From Naegleria lovaniensis (taxonomy: Eukaryota > Heterolobosea > Eutetramitea > Acrasida > Naegleriidae): a DNA stretch of 64,000 bases. Shown here piece by piece: positions 9,889 to 63,700 of this stretch (position 1 is its first letter; each line of letters begins with the position of its first letter). The stretch covers positions 170,669 through 234,668 of the forward strand of contig NW_025407858.1 of assembly GCF_003324165.1 (NCBI RefSeq), read 5' to 3'. The position numbers were made by a program, and so were the translations under genes. The notes under the pieces were generated by a model. The model did not search any database and had not been told where the DNA came from. It worked only from the letters and a program-made list of their open reading frames with translations.

Positions 9889-10853
9889 TTAAGCTCTTCT
9901 TGGCTTTCTAGAATGCTTTCTCATAAAAGTAGTCAAGACATTCTTGAGCAATTGTTTGTGAACGAAAAACAATGGCTTTTCTTGTCTTCTTGGAGCTCTT
10001 CTTGAAACTCTTCTTTGTCTTCTATTTCTTGAAACTCTTCTTGGAGCTCTTCTTGGAACTCTTCTTTGAGAACGTCTTTTTTCCATTCTTTCAAGTCTTT
10101 CAACAAGTCTTGCAAGGAAATCAAAATGTTCAACAGCTGCTGGTCTTCTGACAGCTCGCTTTCTTCTTGGTAAACGTCTCTTCTGATTTCTCTTTGGAAC
10201 ACGTCTTGGGAATCTCTTCTTCCAAACAGAAGCAACTTTGACAGATCTGACAAGATTTTCAAGTCTCTTCAAGAACTTTTCAATTGGGAATCTTCTATTG
10301 ACTCTCTTTGGCTTGACATTCTTATTGACAGGAGTAGCAACAGTTGTAGCTGCTGCTGATGGTTGTTGTTGTTGGTGAACTTGCTTGGCCATCATTCTAA
10401 TCTTTTGTGCCAACTTTCTAACCTTTCTTCTCAAAAATCTTCTCAAAATTCTTCTCACCAATCGGACCACTTCATGGAAGTTTTGTGATTTCTTCAACTC
10501 TTCGATATGAGTCTTCAAATCGTCAGTCTTTCCGTCCTTCTTCAATTGCAAGAGATGATCCACAATGACTGAGAGTTTTCTCAAAGTAACTTTAGCATCT
10601 TGTGCATTGTATGGAGCTTGTTCGGAAGTATTCTTCAACAAACCTAATTCCTTCAAGTTTTTGAGAATTTGTCTCAAGAAACGAACTTTGCTTTGTTTCT
10701 TTGGAGTTGTAGCAGAGAGAGTGGAATTGACATTACGGACGAATTGTTGTACTTTTTGAGGTTGTTGTGTGAGAGGTGCTTGTTGAGCGAATGATGTGTG
10801 AATCATGATGGCACACACAATGGCCAAAGACCGAAGATGATCAATGACTTCAT
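9889..10853 (-). CDS. Secreted, extremely Arg-rich cationic protein
   Basis: About 320 residues with a signal peptide followed by a very basic mature chain. The ATG at 10853 starts MKSLIIFG; the frame slips at the T-run around 10826-10828, after which it reads LAIVCAIMIHTSFAQQ, so one T appears to be missing and the two parts together make a textbook signal peptide. The mature part has amphipathic Lys/Leu helices (ILKNLKELGLL, VVRLVRRILRRFLRRK), a Gln/Ala linker, then clusters of RRVPRRAPRRVSRN and RRQRRVSRRAPRRQ near the C-terminus. No cysteines form an obvious disulphide frame. No domain family is recognised; candidates are a granule-matrix, DNA/RNA-binding or membrane-active protein. Nothing in the sequence decides between them. 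Confidence 0.8.
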
Positions 10854-40359: not shown

Positions 40360-42443
40360 ATGAAATCGGGATCGCCAACTTCAACAACCATTCAACAACC
40401 TGATGTAAAATTCAACAAAACATCATGTTTGTTGTTCGAGCCTAACGTGCTCTTCTTTCCGAGTAGGTGTTCAGAATTCGACCATAATGTTGATGAAAAC
40501 TTTGTGTTTCTGCCTTCTCTTAAATGATCAGTGCCCAACAAGTACAAAACAATACTAACGCTACACATTTTCAATAATCATCTTACAGAATTTGTAGCCT
40601 TCTCAATTAAGAATCCAAACCCTCAATATTTTAAATTCTCTAAAATGTCAGCAGTGCTGTTACCAAAAACCTCAACATGCATTGAAATAACGTTGGAATG
40701 CTTTCATTCTTGGACAATTGGGGAAAGTAATGGTAACGTGGTTGAGTTTCATTACAAACAATCTGATGATCCTCAAGATTTTACTAAAAAAGGTGTAAGT
40801 GATTCTTGCTTTCTGTGTTTGTTGAATCATCATAATGAATCCAGTCATTGACAAGAAATACCCATATTGAAAAACTCGAATACAAAATTTCCTTTCCATC
40901 CAATGATAACTTGAGTGTCAAAATTCTCAACGATACCATTACCATTGCTCCTAAAAAAGTCCACTTTGACGGCATCAGAGATCATGAAGTGAAATACATT
41001 TCGTTGTTATATGGTTGTGAAGAGAATTGTCCAGTAAGTATTTGAAAGATCGACTCGATTGATAAACCCAATCCATGTAGGTACCTGTTTGGGACTTATT
41101 TATGGAGCCAACAGAATTTGTGTTAATCAGTAGAAATCAATTACAGGAAGAAATTCAATCCTATTATTGCCCTTCTTGTTTAATGGAAGTATCTGGATCT
41201 GAAGCCATGTCTAATCGAATGACATGCTCGTATTGCTACGAATGTCCTCAGTGTAATTCCAATTTAACAATTGTTAGCTCTGAGAATGGTACCTATTTTG
41301 ATTGTCCATTCTGTCATTGGAATTCACTTTCTATTGGATTGAATACAGAGGGAAAGTATTCTCAACTCTTTGATCAACTGAAGGATCATGATTTCATTCA
41401 CCAAAACAAGTTTTATATTCTATCAAAAGCATTTGCAGAGTTGTGTCATTCCAGTCAATTCGAATTAAGCAAAACCAGTAATTCCGTTATGGCTTCCAAC
41501 AGTAAGTGGTTTCAATGTTTCAACACTCGAAATATTTCATTAGAAAACCTTCCTATCATTTCCATTGACGAATTTTTAAATGAACGTCATGATGAGGAGT
41601 ATGACAGATTGAGTCCAACTTCATTCAATTACACTTCATTCATATCATTCCCTAATCGATTGTTGCATCCTTCATGCAACGAAATTCATTCTGAACATGT
41701 TTGGCCTTTTCGAAAAACACTCTGTACCAAGAAAATCAAAAAGTATGGAAATACTGTTATTGTCAAAAGATCAGCTGATTCCAATTCATCTTTTGGCCAT
41801 TTTGAGATCAATCATAGTGCCATGTAAGTATTACTCAATTTTGAAATTCAAAGATAGAATCAAATGATTCCTAAGGTTTTATTTACCAAAAGTATCCATT
41901 GTGAACGCTCCAGTCATGTTCCTCAATCACGAAAGTGATCTCTACCTCAATATAACCAATCCACATGAGAACTTTAAACTCAGTCTTACCTTTTCTCAAA
42001 ATTTGAATTACTCAAAAACGAATGCAAAACTCATTCTCTCGGATCGACCAATTATTTTGAGAGAACATTTTGGACTTGATCTTTATTCACATGATACCAT
42101 GGTATTTATTCAAGGAAATGAAGAAGAATATAGATTAAGATCTGAGGATGATACATCTTTTGTGTTAGAACGAAGAGGTAATCAAGTCAAAGTTCGACTT
42201 GGTATCATTCCACAGCAAGCGGGTCCTGTTCAATGTTCTCTGTGTGTGAAAATGAGTATCATACCCAATGAAATGTCCTCCTCAACGGACTCGGATTCTG
42301 GATTCAATGATAATGCCATTCGTCACTCAGAAAAATCAACCTTATTTTACATTTTTCTAACATTGCCTTCAAGTTCGTTGGAGAAGGCTCCCGTAGAAGA
42401 TGAACCTATACCTGTGGATTACTCTCGAATGATATTTTATTGA
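40360..42443 (+). CDS. DCTN4: Dynactin subunit p62 (DCTN4-like) with N-terminal MSP/VAP-type domain
   Basis: Exons 40360-40462, 40532-40794, 40845-41033, 41081-41823 and 41876-42443 join in phase at all four junctions, giving about 621 residues; human p62 is about 460. The C-terminal part is p62: CPSCLMEV, CSYCYECPQC, FDCPFCHWNSLSIG (four Cys pairs), YLPKVSIVNAPVMF and LYLNITNPHENFKLSL. The second Cys pair of animal p62 (Cys-Arg-Lys-Cys) reads LCTKKIKK here, so it is incomplete. The first 110 residues read as an MSP domain: LLFEPNVLFFP, ILTLHIFNNHLTEFVAFSIK, NPQYFKFSKMSAVLLP, TCIEITLECF. p62 belongs to the pointed-end complex of dynactin. The exact ATG is uncertain (open frame back to about 40244). 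Confidence 0.88.
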
Positions 42444-42548: not shown

Positions 42549-45500
42549 ATGTTGCAGCCGACCAACAGTACCGGCCATCGACGCATCCACAGTGCCAATG
42601 CCTTTCAATTCTCTCGTCACTCTCCTTTCAAAAACATCTTTGGGCAAGAGCAAAAGAAAGAATTACAATTCACCAATTTAAACAAAATCAACAAGTCAGC
42701 ATGTTCTGCCGAATCCACAGTGATTAGTTGTGATGAAGATTATTTTGCTTTACCCTTCGGAACTTATGGAGGTGTCATTAGTATGTTGTTTTTTAGTGTA
42801 TGATTTGAGGTTTTTCTAATGAGAAATCATGATTGACGATCATAACATGATGAATGTGTCTCTCTCTACATGATTATGATCATCATCCTCGGTGATGATC
42901 TCTCTACATTCTCTACATTACATCACACTTGAACAATATCCATAAATCCATCATCATCATCATCATCACAAACACTTTCATCGGTCCGACTGACTTTCTT
43001 GATGATCCTGACCAACACTCACCGATACGTTCTCAATGTTTTTTTATACAATCTTGTACTCCACAATGATATTCACTTGAATGACCCTTCTGCACACAAC
43101 AATACATTGTGCACTCACCAAACCCATCCTCACACCCATCCTCACACCCATCCTCACACACACACACTTCTCAACATGATGATGATGAACATTACAACAA
43201 TAGTTCTTCGACATTCCAACATTCCACAAGATTCCAAATCGAGACGTGCTCATGCCAATCCACCTCTTCTCTCCGATCACACTGGATTTGTTCATGATCA
43301 TTCATTCTCTCCTCTCAAACCAAGTTATAATGATTCAGAATTTCGTTTATTTTCAACATGTTCTGCAGATTGTACAATTAAAATTTGGAAAATTAGACAA
43401 CATCCTGAACTTGCTATTCATGGTTATTGTGAAAATTCAACCACTGACACGATTACCTTAAAAGGACATGAAAAGAAAGTCAACACTGGTGATTTTCATC
43501 CCAATGTGAATAATATCTTTGTGAGTTCAAGTACAGATAATACATTAAGAATATGGGATATTACAAGTCAAAAAGATTTAATTGTATTGAAAGATGATTT
43601 TGATGATTTGATTCAATCATGGGATTGGTCTGCCACTGCAAGTATCTTGTATACCTCGAGTAGAGATACCATTGCAAGAGTGTATGATCCAAGAACGAAA
43701 TATGCCATTGTGGTAAGTAGTGCACTTTGAACCTTTCTCAACATGAATTCATGAAATGGCTTTCTATATGTTGTTCCTTCTTGACTCTCTCGTTTTTTTT
43801 TAATTGGTTTGTCAAATTCATGATTCATGTACCTCCCTCGACACCCAATTCATGAATCAAAATCAAACACCCACACCCACACATCACCCACACACACATA
43901 ACTTTAAATACCCACACATCACCCACACACACAGTCAGGTAAAGCTCATGATGGTAAAAAAGGTTTTCGAGTGGTGTGTACCAATCCTGATCAATTTTTC
44001 ACTGTTGGATTCAATCTCTCAGGTACTCGTGAATATGCTCTATGGGACTTGAGAAAGGGTATGAGAAAAGGTCCACTTGTACGTGAAACCATCTCGGATC
44101 AAACACCCACTCAACTCTTTCCTTTTTATGATTCTTCTTCTCATTTACTTTATTTAGCAGGAAAAGGTGATACCAAAGTTCGAATGTTTGAAATTGATTC
44201 CAATTCAGAGCCATATGTTCATCCTTTAGGTGAATTTAAATTAACAAGTACCAACACTGGTATTGCCATGTTACCCAAACGAGTGTGTGATACCAAAGTG
44301 TTTGAAGTGGCACGTTTCATGAAACTCAATGTTGAAAGTGTTGAAACGTTTAATTTCCATGTTCCTCGTAAAAAGGAACAACAAGATGTCTTTTCAGATG
44401 ATTTATATCCTCCAGTGCCAAGTGGAAAGCCATCACCATTGACATCGATGGATTGGTTCTCTGGAAAGAGTTGTCTTTGTGATTTGATGAGTATGAGAGA
44501 GAATTATGGTAGTAGTAGTGGTAGTAGTAGTAGTGGGAGTAGTGGCAATGTAGTAGTAGTGGCAATGGTAGTGGCAGTAGTGAAACAAGTATTTCAGGAG
44601 CAACATCATCTACTGGTAGTAGTACTAGTAGTACCAATAATACAACGTCGGTGAAAACTTCTCGAGGAAGATCGTATGCACTCAAATCAGCACCTTCTGT
44701 AGATGTTGGATTGAATACCTATGCAGGTTCTTCGAGTAGTTTAGGTGGAAATTTGGATGAATTTTCTGAAGATTTGACTCTTCTCATCAATTCCTATGGA
44801 TTTTATTTCCATTCGTATTTACATGTTTGGTTTCATAAGGAAATGCGATGGAGGAAATTATTTTGTGCGTTACATCGATCGAAAACACATCCTGAATGGA
44901 ATAGTGTTCTCATCTATGGAGAGAATGCACAACAAGTGAAATCCATACGAGATGAAATTGCGAAAAAGGATCATCAAGAGAATTTCAATCGAAATGAATT
45001 CATTTCCTTGTATTCCAAGTCCAAGACGAGTGGAGTGATTTTCATGGCTCAATTGTTTTATGTACACAAAGGTAGGTTGATCATGTAATATATGATTCAC
45101 TTGTCATTGATATATACACTTGTATGATTCACTGATGATACATACACTTATATGATTCACTTGTCATTGATACATACACTTATATGATTCACTGATGATA
45201 CATACACTTGTAATATATGATTCACACTTCTCATATTCATTCATCATTAGCCTATCAATTGGGAGATGAACATTTTTCAGATCATGAAACTATGGAAATT
45301 CTCTATTATGATTTAATTTCAAATGAAATTGTTTCATTATTCCTAGCCTCAAGTACAAGTGGTATTGGTGGCGGTGGTAGCACGAACACTCGTCATAGTG
45401 TTGGTACCAGTGGTGATCTTGGAGGTGATTCAGAATTAATCAAAACATGGGCAGATACTCTCAAAAAACTTTGTCATCGAGATTTGGTACGAAATCGTCG

Positions 45501-48500
45501 AATCTTTAAGGGATTTGTTCTTCAATTGAAAGATTCTTCTGATTCTTCTGGTAAATTGAATACGAAACAACAAAATAGTGTGGATGTAGATATTCCAGCG
45601 TATTGGGCCAAACGTTGGTGTGTCATTACTGAAGAATTTCTCTTTTTATATTCACATCGTAAATCACCATTGCCCGAGAGTGCATTCACATTAATACCCA
45701 AGAAGAAGATTTCTCTACCAGGAGTGACCAATATGGATTTTGCATTACCACAGTATCATCGATTTGAAAGTATTGATTCTTTGGCAGAGAATGAATGGTC
45801 AAATTCCAATAATAATAATAAGAGTACTAGTAGCAATAGTAATAGTAGCAGTAATAGTAGTAATATAGCAATAGTAGTAACAATCGTAATAGTACTATTC
45901 ATACACTCCTTTCACAAACTCTGAGTGGTGGCAATGATGAAAAGAATTTATGTTTTACTTTGAAATTTGAGAGAAATCCTACTTCTACGAACAAATCCAA
46001 CCCATCTCTGATCTATTTCTTGGCAAATAATGAACAACAAAAAGAATCTCTCTTTGAAACGATTCAAATCAATAGTGGTCTCATTAAGGTTGGTTCCTCT
46101 GAAGAAGAACGATTATTAGAAAAATTAGGATTACCCATTGAAACTCATTCCGATTCTGATATGGGAATTAGCAGTGCTACGACTCCCTCCGATTCAAAGA
46201 GTACAAATGCATCGACGATGATGACAGAGGAAGGTATTGGTAAAATTCAAGTATGGCCCATTTCATCGGATTCCATCTCGAAAGAAGACTTGGAAGATTT
46301 ATTTGGAGTTTTTGGCGCCATTGATCAAATTGAATTATTTTCAAAAGAACATCGAGCCGTAGTGACTTTCCATAAAAAGAGTTCAGCCATGAATGCACTC
46401 GTATTGAACCATACGAATTTGGATGCCACAAAAATCAATGTCCAGGCTCTTTCGGAGGAACAACTCTATGAACCAGGTTATTTGAAAGTTGAGAATATTT
46501 CACCTCAATGTTCCAAACAAGACATTCGAGTGATTTTTGCAACATTTGGTGAAATTCAAAAAATCAAACTGTGGCGTGATCCCAATGCCAAGAATCATTC
46601 GTTTTGTGGAATTATTAAATTCAAAACAGTGGAACAAGCGAAAATGGGACTCGTATTCCATGGATCGAAATTGTATTATGAAGAAATTAAGGTAACCTTT
46701 TTAGAGAGTGGTGATTCCACACTGAATAGTAACAATAGTACTAGTGGTAACAACTCGAATAGTAACAACTCGAATACTACTAGTAATGACCATTCTCTCT
46801 TCCTATTGGGTGAAGATAAATTATTCAATAATGAATATGATCCCAATGAAGTCAAAGCCAATCGACAAAAAGTTCTCATTCAAATCAAGGGAGACAAAAA
46901 GATTCGTTCTCGTCAAGTTGAACTCTCACCAAAATCCATCAATTCAGGAGATGTCTTTATATTGGATTGTGGTAGTTTGATTTATGTATGGAATGGTAAA
47001 CACACTTCAAGATTCAAAAAAGCACGTGGTTTAGATGTTGCTACTAATTTGAAACTCAAAGAACGAGGTGGTAATGCTAAAATTATCATTATTGATGAAG
47101 GTCCAAGTACTAGTACTACAACTACTGCTACTGCTACTACTAGTACAACTACTACTATACGTGAAGATGAACGTGAAATGGAACGACAATTTTGGAATGC
47201 ACTCTTTTCTGAATATAGAGATCCTTCCTTTGTGCGGGAAGAGTTTTTGAATCACATTCCCAGCACAGGAGGAGATGATAAAGAATTTGAAGAAAAGATG
47301 GATAAGAATACCATTTTATATCGAATTAATTTCACGGAACATTTATTTGATTTTTCAGAGGGTGGTAGTAATAGTACTGGTGGTGGTCATGGTAATAATA
47401 GTAATAATAGTAATAGTAGTAACACTAGAACGAGTGGAAAGTATCAATTGAAAATTGTACATCGACACTCACAACCAGCACTCTCTGATTTGAAATCTCA
47501 ATTTGTCTATGTATTGGATTGTTTGAGTGAAATTTATATTTGGGAAGGAAAATACTCATCGAAACAACAACGCTTGTTTGGTCGAACCTTTGCCTCCAAA
47601 ATTGAACAACAAGATCATCGACCCATTTGGACTCGTGTCTGTAAAATTGTGGAACACTCTGAACCTATACTCTTTAAGGAAAAGATGAGTGATTATGCAG
47701 GTGTGTTACCAATTGCAGTTTCACAAGCTGCCATTGATGAAAAACAAGGAAAGGGTAATGTGGCAGCCAAGAAAGAACAACATGAAATTAATGTCAATGA
47801 CATGTTGAATGTAGAGAAGACATTAACTCAATCACTACTACAAACTCAAACACAATCACTACTACTATTACCCACGAGAACCCATGTTTCACAATGAAAC
47901 CAATACAGAAGTATTTATATGGAAAGTAGAAGGTTTTGAAAAGGTAGATTACAATGATGATTATTATGGACAACTCTTTAGTGGAGATTCATTTGTGATT
48001 TTATTCAAATATTACAAATCGAATAAGGCCAAACATTTGATTTATTTTTGGCAAGGAAGAGATTGTTCTGTGAATGAGAAGGGTGCTTCTGCATTGTTGA
48101 CCATTGATGTTTCAAATATTAATTTACAAGGTGATGATGCACCACAAATTCGAATGATTCAACAGAAAGAGACTCGACACTTTTTAAGTATGTTTCAATC
48201 CTATTTGGGATTGGATGGATTGGTAATTCCTTTGGGTAAATTTAATTCAAGTGGTGATAGTAGTTCGAGTGGTATTGGTAGTAGTTCGAGTGGTAGTGAA
48301 ATGGGAGGTAGTGCCATGAAAAAACCACAATTCTCAAAATCTACCATTGGTAGTCATACAAGTAGTAGTAGTGGTCATCTCGCAACGACAGAAGAATCTT
48401 CAAAGAGAGTGTTCCAACAAGCACTTTCACAATTATACATTTATGACATTCGATGTGTCAAGTCATTGATAGCAAAGAGTGATGATCGTTCAGAATCATT

Positions 48501-49449
48501 CTGTGAAAAGACAAGGGCCGTTCAAGTAGACACGAGTGAGTTTAAGAGTATTGAACAAATTTCTCGACTCTTCAATTCCAATCATACACTCTTAATTGTT
48601 ACCAAAGATAAGAAAGAAGGATATTTATGGAAAGGAAAATATCATCATCAAGAGAAGGAGTTGGCTCTTGCTCGTCACGTTTCCAATCATGTATTGAAAT
48701 TTCCAGATTCTAAATTAATACAAATGGATCAAAATGCAGAAAAAGATTCATTATGGAAATTGTTTGGATTGAATGCCATGAATGCTACACCTATCAAGAA
48801 GGTTATCAAATCTCAACTTGATTTACAAAAGAAGAGAACAGATCCAATTTTATATCAATTCTCTGGTGCAACTGGAGTGGTCGACGTGGAGCGAGTTTAT
48901 AATTTTTCACAAGACGACTTGGACATATTTAACGTGTTTTTATTGGATGCACAAGAGTTGGGTTGTTTCTTGTGGTTTGGCTCAAATTCATCCCATAATC
49001 TCCAAAAGGTTGCACTTGAAACTTCTCTCAGATATTGCATGACACATTATGCAACTGTTAACAATACCAAAAATCAAGAAGACTACACTGACGTGAATTT
49101 ATTCGTGACTTATACAGGTCAAGAACCAGCCACATTCAAAACTCATTTCCATGCATGGGGTACATACAGAGACAAATACATTGTCAATCACTTGAATTCC
49201 AATACCAGTAACCTTTCCAAAGAAGTGTTAATTCCTGCAAGTGATTTGATGAAAGAGTATGCAAGAAAGACCTATTCTTACAAGACACTTCTTTCTGAAC
49301 AGTTACCACCTGGAGTGGATGCAACGAAATTGGAAGAATACTTGAGCAATGAAGAATTCCAATTAGTATTCTCCATGACCAGAGATGAATTTAATCAACT
49401 ACCAAAATGGAAACAAGAAAGCGAAAAAAGAAAGGTCTATCTTTTCTAG
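42549..49449 (+). CDS. Villidin-like protein: coronin-type WD40, PH, two RRM-like, five gelsolin-like domains, villin headpiece
   Basis: Exons 42549-42780, 43204-43712, 43935-45071 and 45251-49449, about 2026 residues. Order by approximate residue: coronin-like WD40 propeller 60-420 (TCSADCTIKIWKI, SSTDNTLRIWDITSQKDLIV, REYALWDLRKG, VFEVARFMKL); PH-like region 510-650; second PH 680-800 (IFKGFVLQLK, WAKRWCVITEEFLFLYS); RRM-like 950-1030 (KIQVWPISSDSISKEDLEDL, FGAIDQIELF); RRM-like 1034-1110 (LKVENISPQCSKQDIRVIF, NHSFCGIIKFKTVEQA); gelsolin-like segments near 1160, 1360, 1510, 1690 and 1830 (GDVFILDCGSLIYVWNGKH, TEVFIWKVEG, YFWQGRDC); headpiece 1965-2026 (SYKTLLSEQLPPGVD, WKQESEKRKVYLF). Except for the RRMs this is the plan of Dictyostelium villidin, an actin- and membrane-associated protein. 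Frame slips near 44553, 45861 and twice in 47830-47880, all in AGT/AAT or ACT repeats. Confidence 0.9.
43117..43166 (+). repeat. Short C/A-rich tandem repeat in first villidin intron
   Basis: CCCATCCTCACA is repeated three to four times and runs into a CA tract. A similar CCCACACATCACCCACACACA array fills about 43866-43935 just before exon 3. Both lie in introns. Confidence 0.85.
45088..45232 (+). repeat. Intronic tandem repeat, dimer unit of about 60 bases
   Basis: The third intron of the villidin-like gene (45072-45250) is filled by alternating TATGATTCACTTGTCATTGA and TATGATTCACTGATGATA units, each followed by TACATACACTT; about two full dimers plus a partial copy. No coding effect. Confidence 0.85.
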
Positions 49450-49459
49450 AATAAATAAT

Positions 49460-52400
49460 TTAATCCAAATATTGTCGAAATGCACAACAAATTCCATTAA
49501 TCAATCCAACATGATTCAGATAAGCTGTATGATTCATCTTTTTGGTAATTCGATCTACAAAAGATTGAGATTGAATCTTTTTCTTTGAGCCATCAAAGGC
49601 GCTCTCCTTTTCGTCTTCGCTACTGTCTTCTCCACTTTCTTTTTTTCTAAAAGATAACGCTCCAAATGAAGATACATCATCAAATGTGTCTTCCATTGTT
49701 GTCGTATGATGTTTCTTATTGAAAACTTGCACAGTAGAACAAAACTCCTTTTTCTCATGATTCTTAAAGAGGTAGGTCATGTCACATTTGCATCGAATCA
49801 ATTTGGTATTAGCAAAAGTCTCCGATAGATTGGAAATCATTCTTGAGAGTATACTTTTCGATGTTTTCTTTTTTGTTAAAATGAGAGGTTTTAAACTTGC
49901 TTCATAGTAAATCAATGCAGATTCCATTGGAACATAGGTATCTTGTTCAGAACCAATGAGAATCACTTGTTTGAACCATGCTAAATCATTGGTCATTGAT
50001 AACTGAAAGAGTAAACATTGCTCCAACTTGTGAGCATCACCTGTACATGCTTTTTCATCATAATCTTCCATCGCTAATTCTTGAAGACACTTTTCTCCTT
50101 TGAGTGATTTTAAAAACCATATTCCTGCTCGAACCAAACGATTAGAATACTCTGGTTCTCTACTTTTTAACTTTTTAATAGGTCCAATTCCCAAGTGAGG
50201 AACAGACAAACTCATAAAAGTATATAGATATGGGAATATCTTTCTCCATTCTGAACGATAATGATAAAATGCAGCTCTTAGAATTATTCCTCCAAGTGAG
50301 TGGCATACAAAGCTAATCTTATGAAAAAAGAGTTCACTGTCATTGATGTGTGTATTCACTTCATCAGTTACAAGTTTTGCCATCGTCTTGATAGAGGAAT
50401 TATTGTAATTGTGCGACTCTTTGGAATGTAATTTGTCAAGAGACTTGACAATGAAAAATTGATGCTTATCGTCATGAAAATGCATAGAAAGTATAGTTTT
50501 GAAGGTAACAAAGTCATAGTGACTTGATTTGTAGCCTGGAATGAATACTAATAATAGAAGTATGAAAAGCTAAGAAAACTTCAAAATATCAGTATAAACT
50601 TACCAATTAAATGGTTCCTATTGAGTTGTGCATGAATTCCATTTCTAGAAATAGATTTAGATCCTGCAAGAGGTAAACTCGCAGTACTGTTTTGAGGAAT
50701 GTCCAGAGTGCTGAAACGATCTTCTTTGGACTCTTTCGGAAATAACACAGGTTCTAATGGTTCATCACCCATAATGTCTGCTACTGATAACTCTTTTTCA
50801 GAAGGCTCTGAAACTTCAGAAATTAAACTAAATGGTGAAAATCTTGGATAAAAAAACATATTCGTGTCAATCAAGTTATTGATAGAGTTGATAAGGTGCT
50901 TTTGTTCTTGAACTGTGTCTGTTGTTTGTGTGGGTGTCGAGTCATGGTTATATTCATTAATGTGTTCCAAAGATGACAAACTCTCTCCGCTCCATTCTTT
51001 CCCCATTCTTTCCAACATGAATGTTTCAAGTTTTTGTAAAACAAATTTTGGTTGATCTACAATTAATTTCTGTTGATTTTTCCACAAATCTTCAATGGTC
51101 TCTAAAAGTGGTTTAAATTCACTACTAATGACATCAGGGATGAGATCAAAGTCATTCATATCATTATCAAACTTTTGATTCAAAGTTCTAATAAAGGTTT
51201 CTACTTCTCTATTTTTCTTCTTTTCATTGTATTGATAAGGATTAGAAAGCAAAGAGCGAGATGAACAAGTTTCTTGCAAGCCTCCTACAGGTTTCAATTG
51301 TAGTAATTTTGCACTTGGAGAATTGTAAAGAAATGGATTGGAAAGAGTGGATTTTGGTGCGAGAGCTTCAATACTATATTTTGAATCAGTAACATCTGAA
51401 AAAGACTTTCTTCTGAGTGATGAGATTAGAGATTTCTTTTCATGTGTGTTGGTAGGAGTGGATGACTTTTCACAAAGATCATTAATAAGGTATGTCAGTG
51501 CATCTCTAGATCCCATTAAACATGTTACAATTTCTCTTGCGAATTCAATACTATGAGAAATAACATCAGCTCTCTTCCATGACCTGTTTCTAGCAAGTAC
51601 ATTTGGATACAATTCTGTTAGATCAAGGATGAGGTTTTTCTCATAGGAAGAAACTGAAGAGAACCATGTTTCATCAAACAAAGTCTCTGCATTACCTTCT
51701 TGATCGAGAGTAGCATCTATTTGGGAGGTACAGCTTGCTCCTCCACTCTTTGTATTGGATTTAAGAATGATTGGAGAAGAAAGAGTTTGTAATTCACTAT
51801 TCAGTCTTCGTGGTGGAAGAGTATTATAGGACACATCGAGTAACACGATATGAATGGATGATTTGAGGATACTGTAATACCAATTTTCAAAAATGGCTGG
51901 ATAGTATAAATTAAAACCTCTAATTGCCTTTCTAATAGTAATGGATCGATCAGCTACTTTTACAAAATCATTGACATCAAATTGTTTCACTTGATATTCA
52001 TATTTTTTCATTCTTTCAAATTTCTTTTCTTCCTTTTGAATTCCTTCCTTATCTTTTGGTAAGTGAAATAATTGGAAATCAATATCAATTAAATTATACT
52101 TGAGCAGAGTGGACATGTCAGCAGAGATGTCAAAAATAACAATTTCATGAAGCATAACTTCTTGTTCTCTATATCTGATATAAAATACTTGAGATTGCTT
52201 TGAGTTGTTGTAAACCTTTCTAGAATCTTCCTTAAATTGCTCATTCATCATCATATCAATTTTTATGTTGTTTTGATGCGGTAATAAAGGGTGTGTCGAT
52301 GACATGCCCAAAATGGCGTTAGAGTCTACAAATCTAACTGAAAAGTCTGATGCCGAGTTATTATGTACATGATTTGCATCGTATTTTCCTTGTCGTCCTT

Positions 52401-52677
52401 CTGTTGAAGAATGTAATACAAACGAGTTGATTAGAAACTTTTCACGAACTTGTTCCTTATTTCCGCTGTAATGTGCTGATGAAGACTTTTTTCTGGAATG
52501 ATCACGCATTGATGTTGCTGTTGTAGAAGAAGGGCTTGATGCAAAAGCATTCCGTGCAACGCATTGCTCTCGAGGGTTTACTTCAATTCGGACGTAATAA
52601 TATCCTTTATGTAGCATACCAGAGTTGATGAATCGCTCCAAATTCACCATCAATCTTATTTTGCCTTTGAACGTCAT
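49460..52677 (-). CDS. FAM135-type lipase-like protein (DUF676 serine esterase)
   Basis: Exons 52677-50604 and 50547-49460, 1053 residues. The N-terminus (LERFINSGMLHKGYYYVRIE) matches the N-terminal FAM135 domain. The C-terminal alpha/beta-hydrolase has the oxyanion segment split by the intron (NHLI/VFIPGYKSSHYDF), the nucleophile elbow FVCHSLGGIILR, the acid loop GSEQDTYVP and the histidine in YLNHVGLINGI, so a Ser-Asp-His triad is complete. Long Ser-rich linkers separate the two. Animal and plant FAM135 proteins are poorly characterised; lipid ester hydrolysis is inferred from the fold. Its stop is 10 bases from the villidin stop (convergent). Confidence 0.88.
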
Positions 52678-57062: not shown

Positions 57063-60000
57063 ATGGGTGTTCCATCGTTCATGTCTCAACTCAATTCCAT
57101 CATTAATTCTCTCTATCAACAAGAACACATTGGTGCTCGATATCAACAAATTATTTCCAATGTTACCAATGAAAGAAAGAATAATGTAAAGAAAGGTTCA
57201 AGCCAAAGTAGTAGTAGTAGTTCTACTAGTAATAATAATTCAATAATAATAATTCCAATAATAATAATAACAAATCAAATGAAACTAAATTTCAACCTCC
57301 ATTCATTAGTAATCGTATTCATTCCAAAGTATTTGATTGTATCTATATTGACATCAATCCATTAATTCATGGTGTGGTTCGAGGAGTTCAAAATTCCATC
57401 GATGCAACCAATAGTAGTACTACTGAAACTAGTCATTCTAAAAAATCATCTTCTCAAAATAAGAGTGAAAGTAGTAGTAGTCAAAAAGATTCTAAAAAAT
57501 CATCCTCTTCTCGACCACAAGATTCTAAAAAATCATCTTCTCAAAATAAGAGTACTACAACTGACAACACTTGTGATGATAAAATTGTGAGAGGTGTCAT
57601 TAAAAGTCTTGAAGAAGTCATGACTAATTTTAAGGCTCAAACTCATTGGTTTATATCTTTTGATGGAGTTGCAACAAAATCAAAAAGAATTAAACAACGA
57701 AGTAATAGAGCTAAAGAATCTAAAAAGAGAAATGGAGAGAAGAAAAATATGTCGTCTAGTGATTCTGTAGATATCACTGAGAATCATCATAATCCTGTAG
57801 ATATTCATACCAATAATCCTGTAGATATGAATCATACCAATGATCCTGTAGATATCAGTGAGAATCATACCAATCATCCTATGGATATCACTGAGAATCA
57901 TACAAATGTACCCAATGATGAAATCATGTTGGATTTAGCAGATGAAGAAATGAGTGATGATGAAAATAATGACAATGGCACACTACCACAACTGTGAACA
58001 TGGAAAAGGATCATTCACCACCACTCTTTGAAATTCCTAAAAAACGATCTCTCTCCGTTGAAATCTCACCAGGTACTAATCTCTCTAAAAAGATTTATGA
58101 AGCAGTATTGAATTTAGCTTTTCATTATTCAAAGACTCATAATGTTACTGTTTATGTTTCTTCATCTTGTCGATCAGGAGAAGGAGAAACTAAAATTATT
58201 GAACATTTAAGAAAATACATGCAAACTACTACTAGTAAAAAGAGTAATCGTAGTAGTAGTAATAATAGTAGTAGTGGTAATAATAATAATAATGGTAATA
58301 GTAGTAGTAATAGTAGTAGTAATAATAGTCATAACAATACTAGACCTTCCACTTCTGTATTAATCATTTCACATGATTCTGATATGGTATTAATACCATT
58401 ATCAAATCCAGAATTGAATTGTTCCTTCAATGTACTTGTACCCAATGGAACACGTTGTTCCTATGGAACTATGATTGATATTACTGGATTGAAATTATTA
58501 TTATATCATTTATTTAAAATGAATCAAGTGACAAGTACGATGAATCCACAGAATGCTTCAATGACGAGTTCCTCTTCGATACCTTCCTCTTCCATCATGA
58601 ATCAAATCTCCTCTTCAATACCTTCCTCTTCCATCATGAACAACAATGATAACAACAATCATCAAATCTCTAATCATCATGATAACAACAATCATCAAAT
58701 CTCCTCTTCAATACCTTCCTCTTCTATAAATCCACAACCATCCATTCTACCCAATAGTAATGAAATTATTCAACAATTATGTTTGGATTTTGTTTGTATT
58801 TCATTACTTGCAGGTGGATGTGATTATTTCAATCCATTTGCCAAAACCTTGGAACATCGATGGAGAAGATATTTTAAATTAATTCAAACTGAAAAAACAA
58901 ATTATTCAATATTTACATTGAAACATGATGAAAAGACCAATGAATATATTTTAAATATTAATACCAATAATTTACTATTTGTATTTGGTAATTATGTAAG
59001 AGATAAGAGAAGTACCATAGCACCTAATCCAGACAATGCTATTCAATTCTTTAAACAATTGACAGCATGTGTACTTCAATTCAAAGGACAATTACCAATT
59101 ATGGAATATTTTAGTCGTAAATTATCAATGGTTGATTTGTTAGCCTTAATTGAAAGAGAAAAAAAAGCAAATAACTATGGAACTAGTACTCAAGCAAATG
59201 ACCATGGAACTAGTACTCTTTCCAATAGTACGATGGAGGAGGATGGTAGTACAAGCATCATGATTCAAGATTTGAACCATACTATGAATGGTACCATGAG
59301 TGGAAGTAGTAGTAGTAGTACTATTACTATTAATGGTAGCAGTAGTAGTACTAGTTCAACAATGACTACTCCACTCAACACAATTGAAAATCAAAGTAAC
59401 ACAACCACCAAAACCAACAACACTCCAAAGAAATCATCCATCAATCCTACTTTCAAGATTACTACATCCTTTCAAGAACTTGTAGATACTTATCATTTAA
59501 CACCACTGGAATGTCTCTTTTCAATGATTACTTCTCACAACTCACATGCACTTCCACATGACAAGTTAATTGAATTATTTTCATTCTCTCCTAAATTATG
59601 TGATTTATTACATATTGATTCTAAATTTAATTATGAAAATGGAAATGATAATCATTGGATTGCATCGAATGAACCCTATGAATTGATACGACAAGGTATT
59701 ATGGAATGGAAAGAGAAATATCCTACCATTACTGATGAAGTTATTAATAACAAACATATTGGAACGATACAATTTACATGTGTTGGTTCTGGTAGTAGTA
59801 GTAATACTGTGTTATTGAAACATTCAGGTGGTCTTGTTGGAGGTGCTGTTCAAAATGATGCAAAGACAAAGTCGACAACAACTACGACAACAATGACGAC
59901 AACAACTTCAAAGAGTAGTAGTAACAACAACAACAACAACAACAATAGCAATCATTCAAAAGATCGTCAAAACAAATCATCCAATGAAAAGGAGAATAAT

Positions 60001-60677
60001 CAAATTCAAGTGTTAGAAGAAACCATTCGACCCTTTGAAGCTTGTGTACCCTATCCATTTGTACCTGGTATTTACACGTTATCAAGATTAAGATTTGCCA
60101 ATGACAAGATTCGATATCAACGAGCCAATACTCTCAATCAATATACTCTTGGTGAAGAATTTGATCGAACTGTATTGGATATTCCTCTAACATCCAAACA
60201 AGTCAAGATTGTAAAGAAGAAACAATTACCACCACCACCTAATCCTTTGAAGAAAAAGAAATCAATGCAACAACAATCAATGGCTACAACAACATGTGAA
60301 TCACTGTCTGTTACCGAGAGTGAGGTGAATAGAAGTGGAATTTTACAAGCCTTGTTACAGAAATCAAACAAGTTACCAGAGTCTATTGCAGTGAATATGG
60401 ATACCAGCAATGGTAGTGAAAACAGTCTGAAGAAACGAAAATTGAATCAACTTTCACCATCCAACAATCTGAAAGAAAACCAAAAACAGTCAAATTAGAG
60501 CAAGCGAGTACTCCAGCTGGACAAGGACAGACAACAAAACAAACAAGTAGAAGATCAAAGAAAAAGAGTAGTGCATCTTCAAATAACCCAAGTGAAAACA
60601 CTGTTTCTTTACCCACTGCAGAACCTGGGGCGACAAGAACACAAAAGAATAAAGATGTTGAACCAACTCAACGTTGA
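57063..60677 (+). CDS. XRN-family 5'-3' exoribonuclease, divergent, with low-complexity insertions
   Basis: The start is set by the family-typical MGVPSF at 57063. Catalytic motifs in order: CIYIDINPLIHGVV, HWFISFDGVATKSKRIKQRS, VSSSCRSGEGETKIIEHLRK, LIISHDSDMVLIPL and DFVCISLLAGGCDYFNPF. The metal-binding acidic residues (Asp, Asp, Glu/Glu, Asp/Asp, Asp) all seem present, so activity is plausible. Long Ser/Asn/Lys-rich inserts interrupt the nuclease core, and the final 200 residues are basic. Frame slips near 57240 (ATA/AAT run), near 57990 and near 60487 (run of A) each need one base; the corrected protein is about 1205 residues. XRN1 degrades decapped mRNA in the cytoplasm and XRN2/Rat1 acts in the nucleus; the sequence does not say which this is. 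Confidence 0.82.
58560..58740 (+). repeat. Coding tandem repeat in the XRN gene
   Basis: Units of TCCTCTTCAATACCTTCCTC plus TTCCATCATGAA, alternating with AATCATCAAATCTC and GATAACAACAATCA, repeat three times. They encode Ser-Ile-Pro-Ser-Ser and Asn-Asn-His-Gln-Ile repeats inside a linker. A second coding array, about 57770-57905, repeats a GTAGATAT..AATCATACC unit (Pro-Val-Asp-Ile / Glu-Asn-His-Thr). Confidence 0.8.
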
Positions 60678-60706: not shown

Positions 60707-63700
60707 TCAATAATATCCTCTCTTATAATTAAATCTAACCTTCAACAAGTATTTGATGTTCACTTGAGCAATATCATAGACAATATATTCATTGTACAAC
60801 AAAGAAGCATGACGTGGTACATTGGAGCTTGTTGCTGTTCCAAGTGGTACTTTCACTTTTCCATCACAAATGTATTTGGCCATGGAATCATTGGGCTCTG
60901 TCTTACCATGTCCGAAACAGCTATGATAACCTTTTGGCAACTTTTCAATATAATCAGCTTGGAGACGTTCATACATGTTACCGAGTGCAACATCACACAA
61001 TAATAAAACACCAACATTGGCATCAGGGCTAGTTCTACAATAATTGGCTGATTTGGAGGACATGTCGGCCTGTGATTTTGTTATTCCAACAACATAATCA
61101 GTCTCTGTTGAAAAAAAAACAACACACTCTCTACTTACAAAGTAAATACCCTTACCAAACATGTAACCAGTGGCTGGAGCTTCAGGTGGAGCAATTCTCA
61201 AACCTTAATTTGAAGGGGGTGTAGAATCAAAATACATTCCATCAATAGGTTATGGAATGAATACATGGACATGAATAAATTAAATTCCATTCAAAAATAA
61301 ATTCAAAAATAAATTCAAAATATTCCATTCAAAAATAAATTCAAAAATAATTCAAATTCAAAAATAAATTCAAAAATATTCCATTCCACACAATATGCCA
61401 TTCATTCCACACACACCAAATACAACTTACCTTGTGATAAAATACCACCAAAATTACTCACTCTACTACCATGCCACAACAATTGTCGATTATGTAAATT
61501 CTCAAATGTTTTAAATCTTTCATTTTCACCCAAACGTTCCACTTCAAATGCATCAATCAATTCAAGTGAATATTCTCTATGAGTGGATGCATGAGTATTT
61601 TGTAAATATTCATTCACCATTGCAAACATATCAGAATCCTTTTTAAGAGGAGTGAGATTGGTAGCAAGTTTCTTATAATAACCATCCAATGGATCTGATT
61701 CACCTTCATTAGAATCACTTTTAAGAAGTGAAGTTGCAATTTCCATTTCTTGTAATGCTTCAATCATTTTATCTTCTCTTTCAATAAATTTTCATCATCA
61801 ATAATTTCAGGATTACTGGTTGGAATGATGGTATAGAATTTGTTCGATAGAGTAAGAAATTGTTGTTTAAATTGTTGATGAATGGAACTCTTTGGAGTTG
61901 GAATAGTTGGAGTAGTTGTAGTACCAGTCGTAGTAGTAGTACCAGTCGTAGTACCAGTCGTAGTACCAGTCATAGTACCAGTCATAGTTGTAGTAACCAC
62001 ATCATCATCATTGGAAGTGTCCATAATCACACTGGTTGGAGTGTTGTTGTTGTTGTTACCAGAGTAACAACTTGTATTCATTACCATTGGCACAACAATT
62101 CCCTCTCGTTCTTCCTTCTCACGAACTTGTTTCAATACATTTTGAATTTCATTCAACACTTCATATCCTTTTGAAATGTGAGACTTTTTCAATCGTCCAA
62201 GTGGCATCTTGTCCGTATCAATTTCCATTTCTTTCAATGTTTGTTTCATGGTCTTGACATCAAATATTAACTTGACCAAGGATGCTACTTCAGGATGTAA
62301 TAATTTACCATGATATTCTTGATTCATCTTCTTTTCAAGTGCATCTAAATCAGTTTGAGAATCATCTTCACCATAATCAACATCAATTGGAAAGAATCGA
62401 CCTGGTTTCTTTTCAAAGGAATGTCTTTGAGACCACTGATTACCAGTTTTATCATAATAAGTGGTTGTAAATTCATGAAGTGCATTGGATAAAGAGGAAT
62501 GTTCAGTCAATTTGTTTGAACCAATAGATGAATTCAATCGACCCCATTTTCTAAAACAATAATATTCTTTGGTATGATCATGTTCCAATAATTGAATAAT
62601 ATAATAGGAATTGATACCAGTTTGGAGATCAGTCAAATTCAAATGAACAGAATAGACATCATCACCACTTTCATAGACATGAAGATTTTCAGCATCTTCG
62701 CAATCTTCATCGACTGCTGCTCTTCCCTTAATCGTCAATTTCTTCTTTTTTGGTTTAGATTCTTCTTCAAGGCTTGAAGACTCATCCGAGGTCTTTCTCT
62801 TCTTATCTGCAGGATTATAGAGAATGTAATCCTTATATTCAGATTCATCTAATTTCTTTTCCTTTTCAGCACTCATATGAATGAAATCTTCATCCATAAT
62901 GAGAATGTTGAGTTTTTTAGCCTTCTTGACTTTGGTTGTATCCTTATCATATTCCTTTGAGGTACAGACCAGATGTGTACATCCTTTAACTACATCACTC
63001 TTAAAGATACCACCATTTTCTTCAATAATGTCTTGAATTTCATTTTGTTTCATACTCAATTTACCAGATAAGGCAATTCTATAATTACCCAATGGAAGTT
63101 TTTCCTTTTCTGGATCAATTTCATCTTGAGCCTCATCAGTAGTAGTATCATTATTTTGAGAAGATTCTGCATTGGTAGTATTTTTCATGATATTCTCCAA
63201 AACATAATCACACTTTTTGTGTTTGACAAATTTGAAATTAGCAAAATAGTCATCATCTTCTTGTAAGGATTCTGGAATGACCCAATCAGTAGCCTTTTCA
63301 AAGGCTTCATCAACAGTAAGTGAATAATCACATTTGGTCCATTCTAATTTACCATGACCTATATGATTCATATATAAAGATTAGAGGAATGACAGCAGGC
63401 ATTTGTCCATTGATTCATGAACGTACAAGTATGAAGTGGAATACAAATGATTATTGAATGAAAAGGGTTATATGAGTTATGAACAATTTGGAAAAAAAAA
63501 TTGAATGTCGAGTTATTTGGAAGATAACTGTATCTCTACTGATCAGTCAGATGACTTACATTTAAATTTACCACCTGAGAATGTCATGTATCCATCTTGA
63601 CAAGTATCATTAGGACATGAAGGTAAACATCCAAACAACATTCCCAAAGCACATCTTTCAATCAATAAATCTTCACCACCCTTTTCAATTTGACCATTCT

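Follow-up and report, generated by a model that had tools for sequence, protein, structure and literature searches.

Genes and domains at the locus

The window analysed here, a stretch of 64 000 nucleotides from Naegleria lovaniensis, contains a forward-strand gene that, by its predicted domains, looks like that of a class-4 coronin (villidin), with a propeller, weak PH signals, five gelsolin repeats and a headpiece (Table 1). Two adjoining RRM segments sit about where the last PH domain or villin's lost first gelsolin repeat would lie. The upstream neighbour (41102-41827) resembles dynactin subunit p62 (Pfam Dynactin_p62, E 1.1e-10), and the downstream neighbour (49460-52677, - strand) has the look of a FAM135-type protein, matching DUF3657 (E 1.9e-6) and, in an esterase part, DUF676 (E 1e-18). 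Elsewhere in the window, 57994-60498 gives a partial match to the N-terminal part of XRN 5'-3' exonucleases (E 5.7e-7) amid long Ser/Asn-rich stretches, and the product of 61764-63371 (- strand) is of PARP type, its domains being BRCT, WGR and PARP regulatory. A 312-codon frame at 9889-10827 (- strand) is very rich in Arg and Lys, with repeated RRxPRR-like stretches, and has no Pfam match at E up to 0.01.

Table 1. Features of the villidin-like gene (positions in the window)
Feature	Position	Strand	Evidence
Coronin N-terminal DUF1899 motif, first exon (from ATG 42549)	42609..42773	+	PF08953, E 8.8e-11 on 42549-42782
WD40 repeats, coronin propeller	43344..43700	+	Pfam WD40, E 1.7e-12 on 42999-43727
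WD40_4, propeller end	44343..44471	+	PF16300, E 1.9e-12
Expected first PH place, barely supported	44750..45070	+	PH_26, E 0.005, 17.0 bits (cut-off 27)
Weak PH match	45553..45738	+	Pfam PH, E 8.7e-4, 20.2 bits (cut-off 25.1)
Frame with RRM pair and two gelsolin repeats, 645 codons	45960..47897	+	Open from 45864 to 47894
RRM1	46239..46451	+	RRM_1, 33.0 bits, E 5.4e-8 (query 46230-46469)
RRM1 RNP2 site IQVWPI	46245-46262	+	Canonical contact position non-aromatic
RRM1 RNP1 site EHRAVVTF	46347-46370	+	Canonical contact positions non-aromatic
RRM2	46479..46703	+	RRM_1, 41.3 bits, E 1.5e-10 (query 46458-46709)
RRM2 RNP2 site LKVENI	46482-46499	+	Contact position K
RRM2 RNP1 site SFCGIIKF	46599-46622	+	Contact positions C, I
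Gelsolin repeat aligning with repeat 2 of gelsolin and villin	46842..47168	+	Horse gelsolin chain 128-238, chain E 7e-24
Gelsolin repeat, third by position	47481..47675	+	Pfam Gelsolin, E 3.6e-10; weak PDB match, fragmin E 5.1e-5
Gelsolin repeat, best aligned with villin repeat 4	47914..48279	+	Villin chain 403-518
Gelsolin repeats aligning with villin 5 and 6	48565..49212	+	Villin chain 9jus 543-819; Villin-1 chain 3fg7, query 226-443
Villin headpiece	49339..49446	+	Pfam VHP, E 4.3e-16

Introns with GT...AG ends were placed by eye; one starts near 42782 and two others lie at about 43714-43935 and about 45072-45250. The reading frame changes within 44543-44651, 45864-45921 and 47827-47894, in each case in simple repeats, and each of these three changes could reflect a sequencing slip, a short intron or true damage. 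The slips were left unmended and the pieces were searched apart. The part that runs from the RRMs through the first two gelsolin repeats is free of them. Because the pair and these two repeats share one open frame, the link between the RRM and gelsolin parts is obtained without mending or splicing.

The gene had been described in an earlier note as encoding a villidin-like actin regulator, and this description is supported: DUF1899, WD40, WD40_4, gelsolin repeats and VHP were all matched by Pfam. Gelsolin matches were returned in two plus three stretches at E up to 10; two of the latter three were at E up to 0.01. The gelsolin segments were numbered by position. In the text of a comparative study (Eckert et al. 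2011, PMC3203266), class-4 coronins are described as having an N-terminal coronin domain, four to five gelsolin repeats without the first repeat of villin, and a headpiece. All of these were found here, and the layout of the gene is close to the one given there. The number of PH domains is stated in that text both as 'three to four' and as 'two to three', a third one being ascribed to the majority of class-4 coronins, and Naegleria gruberi is listed with one class-4 coronin (PMC3203266).

The PH domains placed ahead of the RRMs in the earlier note are retained as weak signals. The PH_26 match in the expected first place is outscored by an unrelated match to TetR-C_39, also below its cut-off (E 0.0026). 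The second signal, a match below the Pfam PH cut-off, covers profile positions 16-57 of 105 (query 45448-45861), and the rest of the domain may follow the Asn/Ser-rich stretch that holds a frame slip. Searched in pieces that were not joined across the slip, 45921-46217, the expected place of this remainder, gave no PH match in Pfam. A third PH domain was not found in the gene with Pfam; the idea that one is masked at 46230-46709 was rejected, no PH model being among the Pfam matches there.

The RRM pair

Two RRM-like domains had been proposed at 46220-46710 from short strings in the translation, all of which are present (LKVENI, FATFGEI, HSFCGIIKF, KIQVWPI, LFGVFGAI and RAVVTFHKKSSAMNAL), with an RRM_1 profile search and structure prediction suggested as checks. 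Pfam RRM_1 matched the pair (query 46218-46709) with 70.4 bits (E 1.2e-19). When each domain was cut out and searched singly, both scored above the RRM_1 cut-off of 20.7 bits (Table 1), in agreement with the proposal. RRM1, which had been called the weaker of the two, does score lower; it is still above the cut-off and is modelled as an RRM. The pair also exceeded the Pfam cut-offs of RRM_occluded, RRM_PARP14_3 and RRM_3, and was matched by Nup35_RRM_2 below its cut-off. The two domains are 29% identical over 68 columns (E 6e-7 in a single comparison).

A separate profile came from 118 stretches of bacterial and viral contigs collected around an RRM motif; one or more of these stretches is not an RRM. 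Among the 1073 stop-to-stop pieces of at least 30 amino acids in the whole window, the frame of the pair was the sole match to this profile at E up to 10. In 2000 shuffles of each domain the real score was never reached; the margin is thin for RRM1 (10.5 versus a best shuffle of 8.7, with 1885 of the 2000 shuffles giving a reported score) and wide for RRM2 (16.4 versus 5.9, with 1766). Codon preference in the frame is 0.27 and 0.28 for the RRM parts, close to the 0.31 and 0.34 of the gelsolin parts; the last gelsolin part gave 0.33, although it belonged to the training set. No relative was found in viral contigs, genome contigs or phage records (the last by tblastn), collections that by their descriptions are viral or prokaryotic and uninformative on other villidins.

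Structure prediction gave a reliable model for RRM1 alone. AlphaFold2 was run on RRM1 with an alignment that held RRM2 and 62 RRM rows from bacterial and viral contigs, out of 91 non-redundant ones. It returned a strand-helix-strand-strand-helix-strand model with a pLDDT of 87.4, in which the β-α-β-β-α-β order is supplemented by one more strand and an end helix, both short. Because the input rows were themselves RRMs, the result is partly circular and indicates compatibility with the fold rather than independent proof. For the pair, including RRM2, the single-sequence model reached a pLDDT of 36.5. A Foldseek search with the RRM1 model retrieved 502 chains of solved structure within an E limit of 0.001 (best E 3.1e-6), and entries near the top of the best 50 of 1710 matches include RRMs of Npl3, RBM39, THOC4, Fox1 and PABPC1; PTB was absent from these best 50. 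The loop between strands 2 and 3 of RRM1 is short in both the alignment and the model. On profile evidence both segments (46230-46709) are predicted, firmly, to be genuine back-to-back RRM domains.

RNP sites and the role of the pair

According to a review of PTB (PMC10342978), RNA bases stack on position 2 of RNP2 and position 5 of RNP1, and the residue at RNP1 position 3 contacts the sugar. In a gap-free alignment these positions (in the order RNP2 2, RNP1 3 and RNP1 5) hold Q, R and V in RRM1 and K, C and I in RRM2, such that six of the six canonically aromatic positions across the two domains are non-aromatic, one of them uncertainly: RNP1 position 3 of RRM2 is in doubt because the phmmer alignment to PABP shifts by one residue and gives F rather than C. 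Both domains therefore lack, with that one position in doubt, the aromatic residues by which a canonical RNA-binding RRM is recognized at these three sites, and neither has the look of a canonical binder of RNA. The strands had been called RNP-like; the sites can be located in both RRMs, but with the canonical aromatics missing (one position uncertain) the label was generous. All 108 readable RNP2 sites in the 118 comparison stretches have Y or F at position 2, in a set that was picked by canonical RNP1 and is biased towards canonical sites. U2AF-homology type RRMs carry an Arg-X-Phe motif; this type was considered for the pair and dropped, as the motif is absent from the last loop of RRM2 (GSKLYY).

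These sites bear on whether the pair binds RNA at all. It is quite possible, at somewhat less than an even chance, that the pair is a protein-docking or structural module whose sheets bind a partner or pack on villidin itself. The loss of every canonical aromatic in the gap-free alignment points this way, as do the acidic character of RRM1 (net charge -5), its short loop between strands 2 and 3, and the matches to RRM_occluded (above cut-off) and Nup35 (below it), RRM types that are not known as ordinary RNA binders. The other recognized domains of the protein are likewise cytoskeletal or PH-like. Against docking, RRM2 is slightly basic (net charge +2) and retains basic and aliphatic residues at its sheet sites as well as the N of RNP2, and the RRMs of PTB replace the RNP aromatic residues, yet the replaced positions still contact RNA, according to the text of PMC10342978. 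From this behaviour of PTB, RNA binding by the pair is possible.

A different origin for the juxtaposition, in which the RRMs belong to a separate protein, either through the presence of two or more genes or because the RRM stretch is spliced out, appears very improbable. The long frame is indeed broken by three slips and there is no PH match between the second slip and the RRMs, but the slips lie in low-complexity repeats, and the uninterrupted 645-codon frame holds the RRMs together with two gelsolin repeats of similar codon preference. Gene boundaries at the slips would also separate gelsolin repeat 3 from repeat 4 at the third slip and would cut a PH domain at the second, if the weak match before it is PH. 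That the segments are a divergent PH domain or an unrelated fold can scarcely be upheld: the third PH domain of most class-4 coronins (PMC3203266) is not found here, but RRM_1 was above its cut-off twice and RRM1 was modelled as an RRM (pLDDT 87, from an alignment made of RRMs).

What can be read directly from the sequence is the RRM identity of the pair and its linkage to gelsolin repeats in one frame. The reading that we prefer, with a probability of roughly 0.45, is that the pair is an RNA tether in a class-4 coronin, taking up RNA in the manner of PTB and placing RNA or RNPs on actin. RNA tethering is given a narrow edge over protein docking, as RRMs in tandem usually bind RNA and PTB offers a precedent for binding by non-aromatic sheets. 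In the tether mechanism the propeller, gelsolin repeats and headpiece would hold F-actin, and phospholipid-binding or PH-type parts may hold membrane. The sheets, with aliphatic or polar/basic residues at their contact sites, would most likely bind short single-stranded RNA as in PTB. In this way the protein would anchor RNA or RNPs on cortical or membrane-bound actin, with the RRM pair as an added docking site on an actin-placed protein. In the text of PMC3203266, membrane association of class-4 coronins is ascribed to phospholipid-binding parts common with villin, and their gelsolin domains, without the first repeat, should not cap, nucleate or bundle.

A more specific form of the RNA-tether reading, in which this single protein links RNA, F-actin and possibly membrane and, by a non-aromatic, PTB-like sheet with no separate adaptor or motor, localises specific mRNAs or RNPs on the cortex or on vesicles, seems to us rather unlikely. 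Links between mRNA and actin usually run through adaptors and motors; if the pair binds RNA, a villin-family protein would itself connect RNA to actin, directly and physically. If it binds protein instead, the RRM would have been reused within the cytoskeleton.

Comparison with known proteins

Villin and gelsolin have the same gelsolin repeats 2-6 by position, and the headpiece is as in villin. Both possess the first gelsolin repeat, and to our knowledge neither has a coronin, PH or RRM part.

PTB (hnRNP I) is a splicing factor with four RRMs and, as far as we know, no cytoskeletal domains. Like the pair, it has the RRM fold, and most of its RNP contact sites carry residues that are not aromatic; the RNP1 sites of its second and third RRMs, given in PMC10342978 as QFQALLQY and KENALQVM, resemble those of the villidin pair. 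In the PDB, the four sequences that villidin RRM1 matches best are chains of PTB1 and PTB2 (E 5.4e-4 to 1.6e-3), and TIGR01649, the model of the hnRNP-L/PTB family, aligns with residues 18-77 of the pair at E 5.3e-4. The likeness of RRM1 to PTB is nevertheless weak, with E 5.4e-4 at best in the PDB and a family-model score of 19.1 bits versus a cut-off of 287.4, which places the pair outside the PTB/hnRNP L family as defined by TIGR01649.

By sequence, RRM2 and the pair as a whole are matched best by PABP, CELF1 and PUF60. For the pair, these were PABP (PDB entry 6r5k, E 1.1e-10, summed over four RRMs), CELF1 (PDB entry 3nmr, E 4.8e-8) and PUF60 (E near 7e-7). Most of the RRMs aligned from these proteins have an aromatic residue at RNP1 position 5, whereas villidin RRM2 has I. 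RRM2 of CELF1, a close match of villidin RRM2, also has C in its RNP1 site but F at position 5.

RRM proteins near actin are common, since RRM_1 is among the most abundant domain families in the text of a census of human actin-associated proteins (PMC10175787). The unusual point is the fusion of RRMs to coronin, gelsolin and headpiece domains, not the presence of an RRM near actin as such. No fusion of this kind was found in a literature search made partly by title and the start of abstracts and mostly outside subscription papers. The terms 'RRM' and 'RNA' do not occur in the main text of PMC3203266, although SMART and Pfam were used there, consistent with the statement in the earlier note that known villidin has no RRM. 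The RRM-bearing villidin is an architecture variant that is new relative to the text of this comparative study. Whether RNA or protein is bound, class-4 coronins gain a domain that is unmentioned in that text. In Dictyostelium villidin and the class-4 coronins as described there, PH, gelsolin and VHP domains are named, whereas in the present gene RRMs precede the gelsolin repeats and the PH signals are weak.
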